Below are positions 1,745 through 11,667 of a stretch of DNA of 64,000 bases, one piece after another. The stretch lies in the NCBI GenBank assembly GCA_017798125.1, contig CP059070.1, positions 558,001 to 622,000 on the forward strand, given 5' to 3'. Made by a program: the position numbers and the translations under genes. Positions within the stretch are counted from its first letter, which is position 1. Every line of letters begins with the position of its first letter. The notes below the pieces were generated by a model. The model did no database searches. It was not told the DNA's origin and saw only the letters and a program-made list of their open reading frames with translations. The stretch is from Cryomorphaceae bacterium. Lineage in GTDB: Bacteria; Bacteroidota; Bacteroidia; Flavobacteriales; ECT2AJA-044.

Positions 1745-2193
1745 AGTACCTCTTGAACGCGGTATAAGTTGCCGCGGAACTGAGCAGAACCGTCTACCGG
1801 CATACCCTTCAAGGCTTGAGCAAGCGGACTCGTGAGTCCAATGACCATGACCTCCGTATTGCTCACGGTTACGGAACCCATGCCGGTGGCAAAATAATAC
1901 CACCGATCGCTAATGCGGGCCAACGCGCCCAGCACAACGCGGTCGGTGTTTTCTTTAGGGAGGCGCTGTAGAACCTCCCACTGTTTTTTAGCAGCGGAAT
2001 ATTGAGCGCCCAGCCGTTCTTGTTCCAACTGAATCATGGCTCGGCCGGTTTCGTGCTTGTCTCCGGCACTACTCTTCGTCTCACTGCCTAAATCGGCCTT
2101 GAGGGCATTGATTTGATCTTGAATTCCGGAGAGTTGCTCTTGAAGGAGCGATAAACAATGACTGTGTACCTCGGCTTTGACCAGCGCCGGCAT
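1741..2193 (-). CDS. GreA/GreB-like C-terminal domain protein
   Basis: The 150-aa product starts with a short helical, coiled-coil-like part (about residues 10-40, LLQEQLSGIQDQINALKADL) and ends with a GreA/GreB-type domain (about 85-150: VVLGALARISDRWYYFATGMG, then VIGLTSPLAQALKGMPVDG). GreA proteins act on backtracked RNA polymerase, but this one lacks the usual full N-terminal coiled coil and its acidic tip cannot be recognised, so a transcription role is uncertain. Its ATG overlaps the stop codon of the TonB receptor gene (TAATG), so the two are translationally coupled. Similar short proteins are often mis-annotated as 3-oxoacyl-ACP synthase in flavobacterial genomes. Confidence 0.7.
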   Translation of the reverse strand: MPALVKAEVHSHCLSLLQEQLSGIQDQINALKADLGSETKSSAGDKHETGRAMIQLEQERLGAQYSAAKKQWEVLQRLPKENTDRVVLGALARISDRWYYFATGMGSVTVSNTEVMVIGLTSPLAQALKGMPVDGSAQFRGNLYRVQEVL

Positions 2194-4238
2194 TAGTTGC
2201 GGTATTCAGGGCCCAGGCTCATGTTGAGCTTGATGAAGTAACTGCGTCCCCAGCTGACCAGTTGTGCACCGCCTGGACTGTGGGTAGAATTGCTCACCTG
2301 GCTCACCTCTACCGTTTGAATATCGAAGAGGTTCTTGGCTCCTACAGACACGAAGACTCGGTTGTTCCAGAAGCCGCGTGAGAAGCTCAAGTGGGTCATG
2401 TTGTAAGGGCTCTGCTCGTTCAAAGTCAACACCTCATCACTGAGGAAGTAGTTCCCTTGTTTTCCGAAGTAGCGGAAGTTCAGGGTTACGTTGGTTTCAA
2501 TCTTCGGTATAACGTAGGTAGCTTGGAGGTTCAAGTCTACCGTACCGATGTATTCCGTAGGCTCGGTCAACTCATCCCAGAAGGACTTGGCCCGAGTATA
2601 ACCAGCTCCAAAAAGGAAGGTAAAATCATCGTAGAGCTTGTAGTCCAATTCAGCGTTAATTCCATCGGTCCATAGGCGGCCTACGTTGATGTACTCGTAG
2701 TACAGTGGGGCCGTCTGGGCCAAGGTGATTTGATTCTCAATATAGTTGTAGAAGATGCGTCCCCGAACCAAGGCCCGATGGGCTTCATTGGTCAACAATT
2801 CGCGCTCTACGGCGATGTACGCATTGTGAGAAGTCTCGGCTTCGAGGTTGGGATTTCCATGAATGTCGTGGTTCACGTCGACAAACTCGAAGTACTGTTC
2901 TTTGAGGTCCGGTGCCCGGAATCCTTGGGCATAACCCGCGCGTACGATTAGATTTTTATCTCCGCGATACACCGCTTTGATCGAAGGTAACACGGGATGA
3001 TCAAATCGACTGTTCCACCCGACGCGCACGCTCGGCTGAATGGTCCAACGCTCATTGGGCATATATTGAGCCCCTACCCATCCCGCGATGTTCATCATTC
3101 GGGTTTCATTGATGGGCGTAGAAGAACTGTCGATGATTCGGTCGCCTGCTCCGGTTTCGTACTGCGTTTCCAAACCGTATTCCGCCTTCCAGCGATTTCC
3201 GTATTTCGCGGTGACGATGGTCCGGTTCAAAAGCGTGGTAAACTTCGAGGTATCCTGACCATCGGCCAGCACATAGTTTGAATCATTCTCGAAGTCAATG
3301 CGGCGATTCTCGCTGACGCGATCGTAAAGGTTGAAAGCCGTTACGCTGTTGAATTTGTGTTTTCGCCCCATATCAAACTTCAAGTGGGCCCTTGGATCGA
3401 TGCGGCGCGTATAGAAGTACTGATCAAAAGAGTAAGGCTCAAATTGTGGGCGCTTGACTTCTCCGAGATCTCTTACCAGTTCATCAAAGTATCGAACCGA
3501 GATGCCGAATTCCAAGCTTTTCTTGCCGTAGTACTTGAACTGAGCGTCTCCACCGATCTGCTCCTTTGGGTTCCACATGCTTTGGGAAGAACGCAAGCTG
3601 TCGTCCGAAAAGAGCTGTGATTTATAGCGAAAGACGCTTCCGGAGAGCATTACGCGCCCCAATCGACCAGATAGGCCCAATGTGTTGCTCAAGAGCCCCA
3701 CATTCTCCCATTGATTTTGTGTAGTGACCGACCACTCTGCGCCGTCGTTCTTCTTGGTGATTAGGTTGATAACGCCTCCGGCCGCGTTGGTTCCGTACCG
3801 GTTGCTCATAGCTCCTTGGACAATCTCCACGCGCTCCACATTGTACAGCGGAAGTTGGGAGATATCAATATTCCCGTCCAAACGGCCAATCACGGGCACT
3901 CCGTCGATCATGATTTGAACGTTGTTTCCACCAATGCCCTGCATGGTCAGTCCGGCCCCGAGCGAAGGATCTTGATTGACCCGAAGATTGAGCTGTTGCT
4001 CCAAGACCTCATCGAGCTGTTGGAAGCCCATGGTCTGAATCTGCTCCGCGTCAATAACCTTGACTTCGTGAACAGCCTTTTCAGCAGAAGTCGGTTCAAA
4101 CTCGCCCGTCACGACTACATCCTCCAATTCGTAGGTACGAACGGGGTCTGTAGAATCAGGAGCCTCCTCTACCTGAGCTTGTGCCCAGGTAAAGGAGAGT
4201 CCTAATAAGATCGTTATGAGCGTTCTTGTCTTCAGAAT
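2193..4238 (-). CDS. TonB-dependent receptor, HmuR-like, with a probable ATT start
   Basis: The product has an N-terminal plug (about residues 38-160: LEDVVVTGEFEPTS, then MQGIGGNNVQIMIDGVPV and NAAGGVINLITKK) and a 22-stranded-type barrel ending in a short beta strand (SYFIKLNMSLG). It imports a substrate across the outer membrane using TonB energy. The gene before it encodes a HmuY-like protein, so heme is the likely cargo (inference). Reading upstream of the first TTG (4127) in frame gives a good signal peptide, KTRTLITILLGLSFTWAQAQ, but no ATG, GTG or TTG before it. The candidates are ATT at 4238, overlapping the previous stop as TAATT, or CTG at 4235. The next junction in the same operon is a normal TAATG. 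From ATT the product would be 681 aa. Confidence 0.85.
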   Translation of the reverse strand: MLKTRTLITILLGLSFTWAQAQVEEAPDSTDPVRTYELEDVVVTGEFEPTSAEKAVHEVKVIDAEQIQTMGFQQLDEVLEQQLNLRVNQDPSLGAGLTMQGIGGNNVQIMIDGVPVIGRLDGNIDISQLPLYNVERVEIVQGAMSNRYGTNAAGGVINLITKKNDGAEWSVTTQNQWENVGLLSNTLGLSGRLGRVMLSGSVFRYKSQLFSDDSLRSSQSMWNPKEQIGGDAQFKYYGKKSLEFGISVRYFDELVRDLGEVKRPQFEPYSFDQYFYTRRIDPRAHLKFDMGRKHKFNSVTAFNLYDRVSENRRIDFENDSNYVLADGQDTSKFTTLLNRTIVTAKYGNRWKAEYGLETQYETGAGDRIIDSSSTPINETRMMNIAGWVGAQYMPNERWTIQPSVRVGWNSRFDHPVLPSIKAVYRGDKNLIVRAGYAQGFRAPDLKEQYFEFVDVNHDIHGNPNLEAETSHNAYIAVERELLTNEAHRALVRGRIFYNYIENQITLAQTAPLYYEYINVGRLWTDGINAELDYKLYDDFTFLFGAGYTRAKSFWDELTEPTEYIGTVDLNLQATYVIPKIETNVTLNFRYFGKQGNYFLSDEVLTLNEQSPYNMTHLSFSRGFWNNRVFVSVGAKNLFDIQTVEVSQVSNSTHSPGGAQLVSWGRSYFIKLNMSLGPEYRN

Positions 4239-5497
4239 TACTGGATGATCAGACGTTCAGTGGTTTGCGCTGTTCCTACGGTCATAGTAACTACGTACAT
4301 TCCCGGTGCAGCGTCAAGTTGAATCGCTTGTTTGTTGTATCCGGTTTCAACGCGGAAGCTTTCCTCTGCCACAATGCGACCTTGCAAGTCAACGATGCGG
4401 TACGAGCCTTCTGTTCCAGCATCCGCCCAATCCAAGGTCAAGTTGACATTGCTGCTGGCTGGATTCGGGTACATGGCAAAACCGTTCAAATCTTCGATCT
4501 CAGGCGTACTCACGTACTGACCTAGATATTCTTTTTCCAATGTGATGATTCCCGTGCTTGATCCTTCGAAGTCGATGAACTGCATCTGGAAGAGGCTATC
4601 GCTTTCGGTAGTCACAAAGTATACGCGGTCGCTCAAGGTGATCCAGCTGAAAGATCCCAAATCAAAGTAACGCCAGTCGTGTCCAATCACATCAATGCTG
4701 TCTGTCAAGTCCGCTTCGTGATCAACAAATTCAACGCTTGATGGATCCACGCCATTGGCTTGGGCCACATATACATTTGGTGCGATCAATGCACCTCCTA
4801 CATTGTACTCCAAGAAGGTTCCGTCTCCAGCGTCCAAGGATTGGCTGAAACGCGTGAACATCATATCCCAGCTGGTCGGCTCGATATCAACGACTGCGTT
4901 ATTCGCCAAGGAATAGAAGACAATCTTTTTGCTGTACGCGGTTTGATCCAAGGTGCTGGTGATTTCATTTCCACCATCGAGATCTGCCCACTTAAAGGTG
5001 AAGGTTCCCAAGATTAGTGATTCCACCATGAACTTCTTGAAGGATCCGTTGCGGAGTTGAATGATGAATACACGGTCACCGATGACCTCGTGGCTTACAA
5101 AATCGTAAACACCCCATCCGAAGTCTGCAGGGTTTCCAGCAGCCGCTGGTGTGTTGAATGCTCCTTCAGACCAGGATACATCCGGGTTGCGGAGGTACTC
5201 CACGGTATCGTTGATGGTGACGGTATTGAAATCGCTTGCACTGGTCAACCATGCAGAAACCGGGCCTTGTGCTCCAGCGCCAGAAGCTACACCTTCGTTG
5301 ATGAAGACACTCGCCATCGAAGGATTCACATTAAAACCGATGTCCCAGGCTTCTAGTGAAGAAGCGGATGTATTACCGCTTGAAAGGCTGTAATAGGTTT
5401 GATTGATGTAACCAGCGCCGACAGATACCTGATCGATCTGTTGTGCAGTAACTCCAAAAGTGACAAGGAGGAGTAAAGAAAGTACGGACTGTTTCAT
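4238..5497 (-). CDS. HmuY-like heme-binding protein with T9SS sorting domain
   Basis: The 419-aa product has a signal peptide (MKQSVLSLLLLVTFGVTAQ), a central domain that reads like the HmuY family (repeated patterns such as SWDMMFTRF and DWRYFDLGSFSW in an all-beta protein), and a C-terminal T9SS type A sorting domain from about residue 340 (MYPNPASSNVNLTL to TTERLIIQ). HmuY proteins take heme from host or environmental hemoproteins and pass it to the TonB receptor HmuR. The next gene is a TonB receptor, the expected partner. The T9SS domain would put this protein on the cell surface or release it, unlike lipoprotein HmuY of Porphyromonas. A -7 box lies 33 bases upstream. Confidence 0.8.
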   Translation of the reverse strand: MKQSVLSLLLLVTFGVTAQQIDQVSVGAGYINQTYYSLSSGNTSASSLEAWDIGFNVNPSMASVFINEGVASGAGAQGPVSAWLTSASDFNTVTINDTVEYLRNPDVSWSEGAFNTPAAAGNPADFGWGVYDFVSHEVIGDRVFIIQLRNGSFKKFMVESLILGTFTFKWADLDGGNEITSTLDQTAYSKKIVFYSLANNAVVDIEPTSWDMMFTRFSQSLDAGDGTFLEYNVGGALIAPNVYVAQANGVDPSSVEFVDHEADLTDSIDVIGHDWRYFDLGSFSWITLSDRVYFVTTESDSLFQMQFIDFEGSSTGIITLEKEYLGQYVSTPEIEDLNGFAMYPNPASSNVNLTLDWADAGTEGSYRIVDLQGRIVAEESFRVETGYNKQAIQLDAAPGMYVVTMTVGTAQTTERLIIQ

Positions 5498-5715: not shown

Positions 5716-7095
5716 TCAAGCCTTAGCTCTGAGCTGGTCGTAGAGACTCTTTGCCTGAGCAAGAAGCGTCGCGTCCGCTTCGACTTCTACCTTTCGAACC
5801 CCTGTATGCGGGGCCAGGTTTTGGCCCTCACGGGCCGATAACAATCCTCCCAAAGCACGCTCAACCACCTCATTGGGCTCAGCACAAAAGTCCTCATAGG
5901 CCACGAAAACCGTTTGGTCGTCCTGAATCTCCAAAGCATACCTGTACACCTCAATCCACAGCTTCAACCAATAGTTGATGCTCTTAGGATCGCCCTCCAA
6001 TGGACCGCCCTCACCAAAGCAGAAGGGCTTTTGACCCCGACCAAACTCATGGTGAGCCAGCCAATTCATGTACTCCAGAACGAAAGGGTCTTCCTCTTGC
6101 ATCTCCGAGTACTGCAGGTGCTTTTCCAAAAGCGATGCCGCTTGCGTGAGCGGGTCTCGGAAGAGGATCACCATTCGAAACTTCGGATTCAAGGCTCGGA
6201 CCGATGCATAGCGAAGCAAAAAGTTGTTGTTCTTGGCCACGTAGACGCGCTCGTTCTCGCCACGCACAACAGCCTGATAATCCAGATACTGCGCGTAGGC
6301 CTCCTTGGATAGATCGTGCGTGCGCAAGCAATCTTCCTCCACGTATTCGCTTTCGGTCACCGCTTTAAAGAAGACCTCTTCTAAAGCCTCGCTGGAATCC
6401 AGACCCACCATGACTCCGTCGCCATGGCTTCGCTCAACCTGAACTTCGGCCTTGGGACTATACAACCTTGCCCACGTTGTCGGCGCCAGCACAAAGGGCA
6501 TATTGGCGTAGCTCAAAGAAGCGAAGGAACCGCGATTCATCACCGCATTCAAAAAGCTGGTGGTTCCCGCTCGCGCCAGACCAGAAATGATGAGGAATTG
6601 AGCCTTCGGCTCGATGTTCTTTTTCCGCGCCGCGTGGACATCGCGCCGCAAAAGGCGCAGGCCTACATGAGGATTGTCCAGCGCTAGATGGTGAAGCAAC
6701 TGAGCCAAGGGCGAATAACCTGAGGAATTCTGGCTCTTTGGGCCAAAAGGAATGACCAGGGGTAACGTTGCCCCCACGGAAAGGGCCACCACATTCCACA
6801 CCCCACTCGGTGCAAAAGGCCGGTCTTCGATAAACCACTCTTGAAAAGCAAAAGGAAAGGCCGCGGCAGACCCAAAGGCCAGCAGCAGTACCCCAATCAC
6901 GGCAAATAGAGCTCCCGTCAACCGTTTGGTTCGTCGCTCAATGGTTGGAAGCTTTTCTTCATCCGTCCCCGGCGCTAAAAAAATGTCCAGCAAGTGCACG
7001 CTCGACTCCGCCAAGGCGAAGAAGCGCTTGGTGAAAATGCGGACGATCACCATAAAGACGACCCCGGCCCAGCCGATGATCAGGTAATCGACCAT
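5716..7095 (-). CDS. Membrane-anchored sulfotransferase
   Basis: The 459-aa product begins with a membrane segment (residues 4-22), a loop, and two more hydrophobic stretches (about 62-82 and 101-117). The C-terminal half is a sulfotransferase domain: the 5'-phosphosulfate loop is IISGLARAGTTSF (169-181), and a 3'-phosphate site is visible in the RMVILFRDPLTQAAS segment. PAPS-dependent sulfotransferases move sulfate to sugars, lipids or peptides. The membrane anchor suggests a membrane-bound acceptor (inference). Its ATG overlaps the stop of the 47-aa membrane protein gene (TGATG), so the cassette 8518-5716 is co-translated. No substrate can be read from the sequence. Confidence 0.82.
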   Translation of the reverse strand: MVDYLIIGWAGVVFMVIVRIFTKRFFALAESSVHLLDIFLAPGTDEEKLPTIERRTKRLTGALFAVIGVLLLAFGSAAAFPFAFQEWFIEDRPFAPSGVWNVVALSVGATLPLVIPFGPKSQNSSGYSPLAQLLHHLALDNPHVGLRLLRRDVHAARKKNIEPKAQFLIISGLARAGTTSFLNAVMNRGSFASLSYANMPFVLAPTTWARLYSPKAEVQVERSHGDGVMVGLDSSEALEEVFFKAVTESEYVEEDCLRTHDLSKEAYAQYLDYQAVVRGENERVYVAKNNNFLLRYASVRALNPKFRMVILFRDPLTQAASLLEKHLQYSEMQEEDPFVLEYMNWLAHHEFGRGQKPFCFGEGGPLEGDPKSINYWLKLWIEVYRYALEIQDDQTVFVAYEDFCAEPNEVVERALGGLLSAREGQNLAPHTGVRKVEVEADATLLAQAKSLYDQLRAKA

Positions 7096-7238
7096 CAGTC
7101 CTTCTTACGGAATCGTTTCTTGATTCGGATCCAAATGATGTATCCGAAGCTAAACGCCACGATCCCCGTGATGACCAAGATGAGTACAATGGTGCCGGCT
7201 CCGAGTCCCGGGCCGATGTAAAGCAAAGGTGCGCTCAT
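7095..7238 (-). CDS. 47-aa single-pass membrane protein between two sulfotransfer genes
   Basis: ATG at 7238-7236 to TGA at 7097-7095 encodes 47 residues: a short polar start (MSAPLLYIGPG), one strong membrane helix (about residues 15-37), and a very basic tail (IRIKKRFRKKD), giving an N-out/C-in prediction. Both ends overlap the neighbouring genes: ATGA with the upstream stop and TGATG with the downstream start. This double coupling, with a proper membrane helix and charge pattern, is the main evidence that the frame is real. I do not recognise a family. A role as a small partner of the membrane sulfotransferase is inference. Confidence 0.72.
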   Translation of the reverse strand: MSAPLLYIGPGLGAGTIVLILVITGIVAFSFGYIIWIRIKKRFRKKD

Positions 7239-8518
7239 AATTCAGGTATAATTCGCGTCCAATTGGACAAGTGGTGGTATCCTTCGTGCTGCGAAGAAAG
7301 TACATTTTTATACAAGACCTCGCCGTCCTTCAACACCCACAAAACAGAGCTGTTTTGTTCCTCAACAAAGACAGACCCATCAGGCAACCAATCGGCCAGA
7401 CTTTCAGTTGTCGAGTAAATGCGGTTGGCCTCAAACGTTTCTTTCTCGATGAATTCAACCTCATCCGTATCGAGGTGGTAAAAGACAATATTGGAGTAGT
7501 GATCCCCCGCATTTTTGCGCTCCAATCCAATCGGCAAATTGGTCTTGGTCTTCTGCCAGGTCACATGGGCGTTGTTGTTGAAGATGCTCAAGGTCGAATC
7601 ATTCACTACATCGACATCGTGCTGGGTATAAAACGGACCCTCCAATACGCGGATCACCTCACCCGTTGAAGGGCGGTAGTGCATGACCACGCTGATGCAC
7701 CGCATGCTCAAAAACAGATCTCCCTTTTTCCAATACGGTCCGTCGGCCAGTACGGGCTCCACATCGTTCAAATGCAGCGGATCCCAGGCCTGCCCGGTTT
7801 TCATCAACAAATGGGTCAAGTCGTTTTCCACCAGAATATCGGTCAGCGACTTGTGGTAGAGGATATGACCTGTCTTGGGGTCAATCTGACTCACCGTATT
7901 GTCAATGTAGTTCAAGTCTCTTCCGTTGAGCTTGACCAGACCTCGATATATGATGAATCCCTTGGGCTCCTTGTCGTAGGTACAGGCCCAGATCATACTG
8001 TCGGCATCAAAGTTCAGCCCGTGGTGGTGAGCAATGGTGTCTTGTTTCCACAGCCGTTCACCTTTTGCATTGACAGCAAACAGTCCGGTGACCCCATTTA
8101 GAGAATAGATTAAATCCCGGTTTCGGGTCATGATCGGGTGGATGATCCGGTTCTGCGCGCGCTGGATATTGGTGATGGTCCAAGAATGCGCTACGGAATC
8201 ATTCCGGAAGTTCAAGACGTCCAACTTTCGCTCAAAGTCGCCGGTGGAATAGGTGACCAATCCCCAAACATCTCGGTCCAGGCGATTGATGGGCTCAAAA
8301 TTCTCCGGTGTAGGCACAAAGGTCTTGGGCAGCTCTTTGACTTCTTCAACCGTCTCTTCAAAGAGGTCGAAGAAACTCACAAAGGTGACCACGGTCGAGT
8401 TCACCTTGGGCCCCCATCCCAAGTCACCTTTGACAGCGCCTTTGACCACCCATCCGAAAGCGGAGAGCAGGAAAAGAACCACAACGGTTCGAGCAAAAAT
8501 CAGGATTACGCGCTGCAT
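7235..8518 (-). CDS. Arylsulfotransferase (ASST)-like propeller protein
   Basis: From the ATG at 8518 the product is 427 aa, with one N-terminal membrane anchor (RVILIFARTVVVLFLLSAF) and a beta-propeller-like body. Features of the ASST/arylsulfotransferase family include repeated N-G-x-x-G-L-F-A-V blade phrases, HHHGLNFDADSMIWA (164-178), HLNDVEPV (249-256) and QHDVDVVNDSTLSIFNNN (299-316). ASST enzymes are PAPS-independent and move sulfate between phenolic esters through a catalytic histidine. Whether this protein is an enzyme or only shares the fold is open. A perfect -7 box (TACCTTTG) lies five bases before this start. It is the first gene of the sulfotransfer cassette. Confidence 0.72.
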   Translation of the reverse strand: MQRVILIFARTVVVLFLLSAFGWVVKGAVKGDLGWGPKVNSTVVTFVSFFDLFEETVEEVKELPKTFVPTPENFEPINRLDRDVWGLVTYSTGDFERKLDVLNFRNDSVAHSWTITNIQRAQNRIIHPIMTRNRDLIYSLNGVTGLFAVNAKGERLWKQDTIAHHHGLNFDADSMIWACTYDKEPKGFIIYRGLVKLNGRDLNYIDNTVSQIDPKTGHILYHKSLTDILVENDLTHLLMKTGQAWDPLHLNDVEPVLADGPYWKKGDLFLSMRCISVVMHYRPSTGEVIRVLEGPFYTQHDVDVVNDSTLSIFNNNAHVTWQKTKTNLPIGLERKNAGDHYSNIVFYHLDTDEVEFIEKETFEANRIYSTTESLADWLPDGSVFVEEQNSSVLWVLKDGEVLYKNVLSSQHEGYHHLSNWTRIIPEL

Positions 8519-9532: not shown

Positions 9533-10873
9533 TTACACTTTTTTACGAATCAATAGGAAAATTTTCTGGTACATGGCGCCTACTCCGAGCAGAGTGCGAA
9601 GCGGATTTGTACCGAGTTTTTTGGCCAGATACCACTGGTTGTAGATGAAGCCCACACCGTAGGTGGCGAGGGTTCCGTAGGCAGCTCCTATCGTGCCGTA
9701 GGCACTGATGAAGAGGTAATTAAAGAGGATGTTTAAAATCGCTGAGAACAGGACAAAATAGAAGTTGACCTTCTGAAGTCCAATGGCATCCAGGACGACT
9801 CCAAACTGCCGGGCATAGGGGATAAAAAGGGTGTAGAAAATGGTCACCCTCAAAATATCTACCGTGTCTAAATACTTTGGGCCAGCCAAGACATTGATGA
9901 TGAATTCCGGAAAAATGAGCACGATTAGAGCGGTGGGTAGGGTGAGCGCCATAATCCCCGAGACACTTTGCTCATACAGTTCCGTGGCCACCTTGATGCC
10001 TTCTTCCCTAACGCGTTTGGTGAGTTCCGGAAAGAGCATGCTCGCTACAGAGAGTGTAGGAACCTCGACCAAAGAGGAGATGCGAATAGCTGGATTGTAG
10101 GCGGCCACTGCCGAGGTGCCAATCATACCGCCCAGGAACCACTGATCAATATTCTTCAAGGACTGAGCGCTGACATTGGTTCCAAAAGTGTACTTCCCAT
10201 AGTGGAACAAATCGCTGGCCGTTTCCCGATCCCATTTCATTTTAAGAGGAGCCAAGAACCGAGTTAGGATCCAGCCCACTAAGGCACCGACTCCTTGAAA
10301 GACGACAAAGGCGATCGATAGCTCAGTCAAATCAATCGGCATATCGGTGAACCAGAGTATCGCGATGTAGCCCGTGAACCCACCTCGTCGAATGAAATGA
10401 GACCAAAAGAATCCACGAAAAGTCCGGTTGGCTTGACCTAGGTATTCGAAATGCCAGAAAAAAGGAGCCAAGAAGGAGCCAACAATCTGGATGTAGAGCA
10501 TTTGAGCTAATTCCGAGGCTCCCCAGAGCGATTCCGCCGGTTGGGCCAGAGTCAAAAAGAGCAGGGCTTGAATGACCGAGAAGATCATGCTCAGTCCAAA
10601 GCTACTCCCTTTGATCTTGGTCTTTTCTTCTTCGGAGTTAGCGTGATTAATGCCGCGAATTAAGCCGTTCCTCAAGAATCCATTCCGGAGTACTTCCAAT
10701 ATGGTGATGACACTGATGAACAAGGCGAGTGTTCCAAACTCTTCCTTGGTCGTGGCCCGGGCGAGGATTAAGAAGTTGACCAAGCCAAAGGCCATGGTGC
10801 TGAATCGCTGTCCTATGGTGTAGACTCCCGATCTCAGCCAGTAATTGCCTTTGATTTTGGAGGAAACACCCAT
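9533..10873 (-). CDS. Polysaccharide flippase (Wzx/MATE-like)
   Basis: The 446-aa product has about 12 membrane helices across its whole length. The N-terminus (YTIGQRFSTMAFGLVNFLILARATTKEEFGTLAL) is typical of Wzx/RfbX polysaccharide exporters, which move lipid-linked sugar units across the inner membrane. Its ATG overlaps the stop of the upstream sulfotransferase gene (TAATG at 10873), so the two are co-translated. The pairing suggests that the exported glycan is sulfated, or that the sulfotransferase acts on the same lipid-linked unit (inference). Confidence 0.88.
   Translation of the reverse strand: MGVSSKIKGNYWLRSGVYTIGQRFSTMAFGLVNFLILARATTKEEFGTLALFISVITILEVLRNGFLRNGLIRGINHANSEEEKTKIKGSSFGLSMIFSVIQALLFLTLAQPAESLWGASELAQMLYIQIVGSFLAPFFWHFEYLGQANRTFRGFFWSHFIRRGGFTGYIAILWFTDMPIDLTELSIAFVVFQGVGALVGWILTRFLAPLKMKWDRETASDLFHYGKYTFGTNVSAQSLKNIDQWFLGGMIGTSAVAAYNPAIRISSLVEVPTLSVASMLFPELTKRVREEGIKVATELYEQSVSGIMALTLPTALIVLIFPEFIINVLAGPKYLDTVDILRVTIFYTLFIPYARQFGVVLDAIGLQKVNFYFVLFSAILNILFNYLFISAYGTIGAAYGTLATYGVGFIYNQWYLAKKLGTNPLRTLLGVGAMYQKIFLLIRKKV
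9691..9706 (+). repeat. Possible hairpin repeat inside the flippase gene
   Basis: The plus strand reads ATC (from 9690)-GTGCC-GTA-GGCAC, a full match to the dispersed repeat. However, two other CCGTAGG strings (9657-9663 and 9675-9681) lie within 45 bases and arise from the repeated Ala-Tyr-Gly-Thr coding pattern, so chance is possible for this copy. Confidence 0.4.
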
Positions 10874-11667
10874 TAATCGAGAAAGCTTTGGTATCCAGAG
10901 TCTCGCAAGGCATGTTCCACTTCATCGGCATTGGCGATGAATCCAGAGAGTTTCTTGGTTGTGATTTTTTTCAACGCCGCTTCGGGCTCGTGGTAGTCCA
11001 ATTCAAGGAAGCTGAAAACGCGTCGCATGGTTTCCGGGTGCTTGGTGTTGTCCTCGAGGTCCTTTTCATACGATACGTAGAGAAAGTCCAATCCTTCGAG
11101 CACCTCGGCTTCAAAGCGATCTAATGAAGCGGACCGACCCAATTGAACCAGGAGGTCATCAACGTCCAGGTGCATTTTCTCCAAAGGTGCATTTTGACTT
11201 CCCTTCGCGGCGTGGTAGGTCATTCGGTGCTCAGCGTACAGCCGTGAAAGAACTTGCCGCAAGTTGTTCTCGCGCCGCAAGTGAATGAGTTTGTAGCCAT
11301 CATCTATCAAAGCTTGTAAGAAGGCCTTAGGATCGGGAAGGTCCTGAAGGTCTCGAAGCTGATAACTCAGCAACTTGAACCCATAGACGGCTTTCGGGGA
11401 AAGTCGCTCCCGTGTTCGGACTCGATTTTTGGTTTGAAGTACTTTCTTATTCAGGATCTCGCCATCACAGAAAAGATCTGGATGGGAATTCATCAAGCTG
11501 ACCAGGAGGGTTGTGCCCGAGCGACCTTTGCCAAACAAGACAAATTTGGCCTCAACTTTCCTTCCTTTCAAAGCCGCCTTAATCGAGTCTTTCGCCTGAA
11601 GGACATACCCCGCAACATGGATGCTTAGCCACTTCTTGGATTCGAATAAAAGCCGCTTAAGGGACAT
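10873..11667 (-). CDS. Sulfotransferase family protein
   Basis: The 264-aa product carries the 5'-phosphosulfate loop FVLFGKGRSGTTLLVSLMNS (about residues 42-61) and the conserved HPDLFCDGEIL that follows in this family. A basic 3'-phosphate region includes KLIHLRRENNLRQVLSRL (about 131-148). It lacks the membrane helices of the sulfotransferase at 5716. It is the first gene of a two-gene unit with the flippase (TAATG overlap), so a glycan or lipid-linked sugar is the likely acceptor (inference). It resembles Stf0-type or carbohydrate sulfotransferases, but the exact group is not settled. Confidence 0.85.
   Translation of the reverse strand: MSLKRLLFESKKWLSIHVAGYVLQAKDSIKAALKGRKVEAKFVLFGKGRSGTTLLVSLMNSHPDLFCDGEILNKKVLQTKNRVRTRERLSPKAVYGFKLLSYQLRDLQDLPDPKAFLQALIDDGYKLIHLRRENNLRQVLSRLYAEHRMTYHAAKGSQNAPLEKMHLDVDDLLVQLGRSASLDRFEAEVLEGLDFLYVSYEKDLEDNTKHPETMRRVFSFLELDYHEPEAALKKITTKKLSGFIANADEVEHALRDSGYQSFLD

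Follow-up and report, generated by a model that had tools for sequence, protein, structure and literature searches.

A conserved three-gene cassette joins an ASST-type propeller, a YxGPG micro-protein and a putative PAPS-dependent membrane sulfotransferase and may encode a transmembrane sulfuryl relay

In the 64,000-nucleotide stretch of Cryomorphaceae bacterium DNA analyzed here (the window), three genes form a conserved unit which, judging from sequence comparison, combines an ASST-type beta-propeller with the invariant histidines of its superfamily, a 47-aa membrane protein of the YxGPG family and a sulfotransferase with an N-terminal membrane module (TM-ST) that carries both PAPS-binding motifs. 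This cassette recurs across two phyla in distantly related bacteria, and its small protein represents an unannotated micro-protein family whose role as a partner is supported by gene fusion. We consider the chances to be about even that the products of the cassette work as a transmembrane sulfuryl relay. The genes are arranged on the minus strand in the order ASST, small gene and TM-ST (Table 1), and the frames and coordinates of a preliminary description, which had reported overlaps at both junctions (ATGA and TGATG), proved to be right. Among the loci measured, gene order was kept and the junctions were overlapping or abutting (-14 to +19 nt), with a value of -4 for the ASST/small-gene junction of the window.

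Table 1. Features of the cassette and their positions in the window
Feature	Position	Strand	Details
ASST-type beta-propeller gene, N-terminal membrane anchor and Arylsulfotran_2	7235..8518	-	427 aa, ATG start; PF14269 E=3e-31; conserved across the cassette family
Small membrane protein gene, YxGPG family	7095..7238	-	47 aa
TM-ST, putative sulfotransferase with three-helix N-terminal membrane module	5716..7095	-	459 aa; PF13469 E=7e-8
ATGA overlap, ASST stop/small-gene start	7235..7238	-	GAATTATGAGC, ATG overlapping TGA
TGATG overlap, small-gene stop/TM-ST start	7093..7097	-	GGACTGATGGTC
Predicted N-terminal transmembrane anchor of ASST, residues 4-22	8453..8509	-	hydropathy
His-rich motif HHH of ASST, residues 164-166	8021..8029	-	H165 and H166 invariant in 19 cassette ASSTs
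HLND motif of ASST, residues 249-252, candidate counterpart of AssT His356-x-Asn358	7763..7774	-	H249 and N251 invariant; pairing inferred
QHD motif of ASST, residues 299-301; H300 candidate sulfuryl-accepting histidine (AssT His436)	7616..7624	-	Q299 and H300 invariant
YIGPG motif of small protein, residues 7-11	7206..7220	-	Y-x-G-P-G in 42/42 distinct cassette copies
Predicted transmembrane helix of small protein, residues 17-35, then basic tail	7134..7190	-	hydropathy
Predicted three-helix membrane module of TM-ST, TM1-TM3, residues 4-117	6745..7086	-	hydropathy; separate ~125-aa gene in several alphaproteobacteria
GLARAGTTS, putative PAPS 5'-phosphosulfate-binding loop of TM-ST, residues 172-180	6556..6582	-	R175, G177 and T179 invariant, 20 sequences
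RDPLTQAAS, putative 3'-phosphate-binding motif of TM-ST, residues 313-321	6133..6159	-	R313, P315 and S321 invariant, 20 sequences

When the 47-aa protein was used as a query, the sister species and two genomes belonging to another family gave strong matches, all of them flanked by an ASST and a sulfotransferase gene in the same order. Neither a small frame lacking conservation nor a gene order missing from relatives, the two outcomes that the preliminary description had named as speaking against its reading, was encountered. The small gene is likewise flanked by ASST and sulfotransferase genes on a metagenome-assembled Bacteroidetes contig (L023). Among the loci read, the contiguous ASST-small-TM-ST trio was found in about 17 Flavobacteriales genomes, while others have a detached ASST. 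Complete trios also accompany four strong matches in two further families of other Bacteroidia and two divergent matches in a third, and, at the level of the phylum, the trio is present in family f98 as well as in family f116, which we call Salinibacter-like from our reading of its sequences. Outside Bacteroidota, where the distribution is drawn from plasmid records only, this type of sulfotransferase was detected by tblastn in seven records of alphaproteobacterial plasmids, with an ASST gene close by in all seven, a YxGPG small gene in six, and either ASST-small-TM module-ST or small-ST-ASST as the gene order. The alphaproteobacterial locus L099, consisting of ST, TM-module and ASST genes, had no detectable YxGPG gene; it lies inside a polysaccharide region with an O-antigen ligase and glycosyltransferases. 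A match on a cyanobacterial plasmid of Stanieria (L149) was rejected as a cassette, being an ordinary sulfotransferase beside an AurF-like gene.

TM-ST matched Sulfotransfer_3 (PF13469) above the Pfam cut-off, and among solved structures its profile matched those of tyrosylprotein sulfotransferases (E=3e-8). The protein keeps the 5'-PSB loop and the 3'-PB motif (RDPxxxxxS), with a core that is invariant over 20 divergent sequences; together with the three predicted helices, these features agree with its earlier assignment as a probable enzyme of the PAPS-dependent type with an N-terminal membrane anchor. Some loci have the three-helix module as part of the sulfotransferase, and others encode it in a separate neighboring gene (L094, L095, L096, L099 and L100). 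The topology predicted for TM-ST would place the N-terminus outside, followed by a cytosolic loop, a hairpin and a catalytic domain facing the cytosol. An AlphaFold model built from a two-sequence alignment was too poor to be of use (pLDDT 40). The host genome encodes an APS kinase together with cysD/cysN-like genes, a gene content indicating that PAPS is available in the cell.

As first described, the product of the middle gene has a single predicted membrane helix and a basic tail, with no Lys or Arg before the helix and seven after it (hydropathy and charge). With the 47-aa protein, all Pfam and NCBIfam models stayed below their cut-offs, and a literature search for its motif returned unrelated papers only. 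The frame is under purifying selection (dN 0.16 and dS 1.13 between the window and the same-genus copy), and the protein is 57-83% identical in four other loci. In 26 of the 30 Flavobacteriales loci with TM-ST, the small gene was located directly upstream of this gene; in the other four (L140, L141, L143 and L144) it was fused to TM-ST in frame, giving continuous frames of 622-641 codons; one fusion has an ATG just ahead of the motif, while TTG would be the start in the other three. Where the ASST is located elsewhere in the genome (L112, L115 and L116), the small gene remains with TM-ST. Since it stays with TM-ST in these cases and is fused to it in four genomes, its genomic associations show that the small protein belongs with TM-ST as a dedicated partner and not with the ASST; a function as an assembly factor, as first proposed, would be compatible with the data.

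Outside family f49, all ten copies of the small protein with a signal peptide (alphaproteobacterial, Salinibacter-like and f98) have AxA at the end of this peptide, immediately before the Y; in the two copies from family f49, the endings are ASG and SLA. As the YxGPG motif directly follows A-x-A, the tyrosine would be the first mature residue, outside. The short Bacteroidia form displays the same charge pattern as the signal-peptide form, and the predicted topology would place the YxGPG end on the periplasmic surface and the basic tail inside. A sister-like micro-protein family, Y(I/L/V)DPGSGS, was observed at L080 and L162-L170 (genomes G406, G420, G582, G510, G679, G579, G502 and others). 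It resembles the YxGPG family in its N-terminal Y-x-x-P-G layout, its one helix and, in some cases, an AxA signal peptide followed by Y, but adjoins a methyltransferase-like ORF of ~455 aa, not a sulfotransferase, in the loci inspected. Homology between the two families is only suggestive, and micro-proteins of the YxxPG type may generally accompany membrane-linked transferases as partners.

To examine co-occurrence, ASST and TM-ST were scored over the same 396 Flavobacteriales genomes. The ASST subfamily was present in 40, of which 33 also carried TM-ST and seven had the ASST only; two genomes had TM-ST only and 354 had neither. The corresponding p-value (Fisher p=7e-39, uncorrected for relatedness) is optimistic, because the co-occurrence is clustered in one family and relatedness inflates significance. 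The seven ASST-only genomes are mostly incomplete or fragmented assemblies. TM-ST is usually present in single copy, and ASSTs are often two in number, in tandem or apart. At L123, L124 and L127, two ASST genes in tandem or on opposite strands lie beside a single small/TM-ST pair, and the host genome contains a second, stand-alone ASST paralogue with a membrane anchor (L056, G000:C1:2035617-2036885), beside which there is no small protein or TM-ST. Good support for the suggestion of the preliminary description that these genes constitute a membrane sulfation module comes from the synteny in two phyla, from ASST and TM-ST occurring together and from the small protein being fused to TM-ST.

PAPS is cytosolic, and AssT-type ASSTs are periplasmic enzymes that act without PAPS. 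The tight coupling, across phyla, of a PAPS enzyme that would face the cytosol with a periplasmic ASST is best explained if the first makes the donor of the second, and Cpz8 and Cpz4 of the caprazamycin pathway provide a precedent for this logic. In such a sulfuryl relay, TM-ST and the small protein would move sulfate from cytosolic PAPS to a membrane-soluble carrier, presumably phenol-, quinol- or polyprenol-like, and the sulfated carrier would arrive at the outer leaflet, where the periplasmic ASST could take its sulfate onto the active-site histidine and hand it to an exported acceptor, e.g., a glycan or lipid. Several ASSTs might be fed by one TM-ST, and the small protein may either bridge TM-ST and ASST across the membrane or shape the route of the donor. 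The gene unit, the partnership and the motifs are evident from sequence; sidedness, carrier, direction and acceptor are those that we infer for this model. Counted against the relay are the lack of a recurrent carrier or acceptor gene, the inconsistent presence of a type III PKS, the variation of the Arg374-like residue, locus L099 without the small protein, a membrane sidedness that is predicted, the poor AlphaFold models and the clustering of the co-occurrence in one family.

Synteny and co-occurrence fit equally well with two parallel sulfations that involve no relay, which we regard as rather unlikely: TM-ST would act on a lipid-linked glycan or a lipid at the cytosolic face and the ASST separately between periplasmic molecules, the genes lying together with the same product being decorated. 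A locus elsewhere in the host genome (L161, G000:C1:1104000-1119500) that comprises a transporter, an APS kinase, cysD/cysN-like genes, several sulfotransferases, a flippase-like protein and glycan genes has the look of a locus for making sulfated glycans and is in line with this explanation. However, parallel sulfations leave the ASST without a known donor, and the presence of TM-ST in 33/40 ASST-bearing genomes even with the ASST detached is what a shared donor predicts. Also in favor of the relay, the other sulfotransferase loci of the host genome are without a YxGPG protein or ASST neighbor.

Among the neighbors of the cassette in relatives, no recurring carrier or acceptor gene was found. 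A second sulfotransferase with a flippase, first described as lying just downstream, is located at 9533-11667, beyond three tRNA genes and another ORF; since the trio genes run on the minus strand and the pair has higher coordinates, it is in fact upstream of the trio, and it was rejected as part of the unit for not being a recurrent neighbor in relatives. At 2193-5497 of the window, a secreted HmuY-like protein with a Por secretion tail (4238-5497) and then a TonB-dependent receptor (2193-4127) are encoded on the same strand and look like a haem-uptake-like pair.

The likeness of the propeller to the PAPS-independent ASST family, which had been noticed from the sequence alone, was borne out by its match to Arylsulfotran_2 (PF14269, 109 bits vs a Pfam cut-off of 27), and the relatives L068, L082 and L100 also scored above the cut-off of PF05935. 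Ten residues are invariant in 19 divergent members (W157, H165, H166, G217, H249, N251, S271, Q299, H300 and N315). The active site of AssT comprises His252, His356, Asn358, Arg374 and His436 (PMC13426309), to which the HH, HxN and QHD motifs of the cassette ASSTs can be tentatively matched residue by residue. The likely position of Arg374 is occupied by R273 in the window and by Arg in most members, and by Lys in L076 and L078; the same-genus copy L002 reads SMCS at this stretch. With the ASST profile of the 19 members, the best solved relative was PDB 9kf4/9kf6 ('Sulfotransferase', 472 aa; E=5e-16), in which QHD aligned to QHD, while E. coli AssT was matched weakly (E=0.002), the match beginning at residue 432, close to the catalytic His436. 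A third profile again found 9kf4/9kf6 and not AssT, and phmmer with a single divergent ASST returned nothing useful from PDB. The six-bladed propeller fold expected of ASSTs was looked for in an AlphaFold model from a two-sequence alignment, which was too poor to be of use (pLDDT 45). The propeller is probably tethered in the periplasm.

The variable Arg374-like position and the weak direct similarity to E. coli AssT could also mean that the ASST-like propeller is non-catalytic and serves in the periplasm as a subunit for binding or assembly within a membrane sulfotransferase complex. We judge this to be decidedly unlikely, as the invariance of H165, H166, H249, N251, Q299, H300 and N315 among divergent members is typical of a kept active site and three relatives match PF05935 above cut-off. 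It is very unlikely that the ASST scavenges environmental aryl sulfates as its donor, with an unrelated TM-ST reaction at the membrane; host-derived aryl sulfates are a proposed natural substrate of E. coli AssT (PMC13426309), but tight linkage to and co-occurrence with a PAPS-type enzyme are unexpected for a scavenger. In a highly improbable version, the small protein itself would be the sulfate carrier of a protein-borne sulfuryl relay. The aryl acceptor would then be its invariant tyrosine, which is predicted to lie outside the inner membrane at the mature N-terminus or close to it, and the ASST would use this residue once it is sulfated. A cytosolic TM-ST is unlikely to sulfate the tyrosine directly in view of the predicted topology, and such a carrier protein would therefore need an intermediate donor or sulfation prior to insertion. 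Chance or positional clustering around a spurious small ORF can practically be dismissed, for although flanking genes are also conserved in g24-type genomes and part of the synteny is therefore vertical, it is already contradicted by recurrence across phyla with different flanks, by purifying selection and by fusion.

According to a 2026 review, it is unknown for most bacterial ASSTs which substrates they use in nature and what their physiological roles are (PMC13426309). If the sulfuryl relay is correct, a widespread group of ASSTs would be supplied with an in-house, PAPS-fed donor by a dedicated membrane sulfotransferase, which would constitute a general route by which molecules outside the cytoplasm could be sulfated with no export of PAPS. 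No description of the cassette was found in the open-access literature searched. TM-ST shares its PAPS-binding motifs with the tyrosylprotein sulfotransferase/Sulfotransfer_3 family but differs from tyrosylprotein sulfotransferases in its three-helix N-terminal module and its dedicated small partner. Eukaryotic TPSTs are located in the Golgi and have a single anchor.

Like the cassette ASST, E. coli AssT, encoded with DsbL/DsbI, is a periplasmic PAPS-independent ASST with an essential histidine in an operon with partner genes (PMC13426309). It shares its operon with disulfide enzymes, and the host is the presumed source of its donor, whereas the partners in the cassette are a PAPS-type sulfotransferase and a micro-protein. 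In the caprazamycin pathway, the PAPS-dependent Cpz8 sulfates a pyrone and the ASST Cpz4 passes the sulfate on to caprazamycin; as proposed for the cassette, a PAPS-dependent sulfotransferase and a PAPS-independent ASST act in one pathway (PMC6731281, PMC4924298). This antibiotic pathway differs in having a linked carrier synthase (Cpz6, which provides the pyrone carrier), while the cassette is without one; a type III PKS, the kind of enzyme that makes the carrier in caprazamycin, was rejected as a general carrier synthase, since no linked PKS was recurrent and only borderline matches were obtained in several trio genomes including the host. In the cassette, moreover, the sulfotransferase is predicted to be membrane-embedded and the ASST membrane-tethered, and TM-ST is accompanied by a YxGPG protein, while we know of no membrane module or micro-protein in the caprazamycin pathway. 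We regard the cassette as a variant of two-step sulfation, not as a category of its own; it may work like the two-step sulfation of Cpz8/Cpz4 without being counted as a member of that system.
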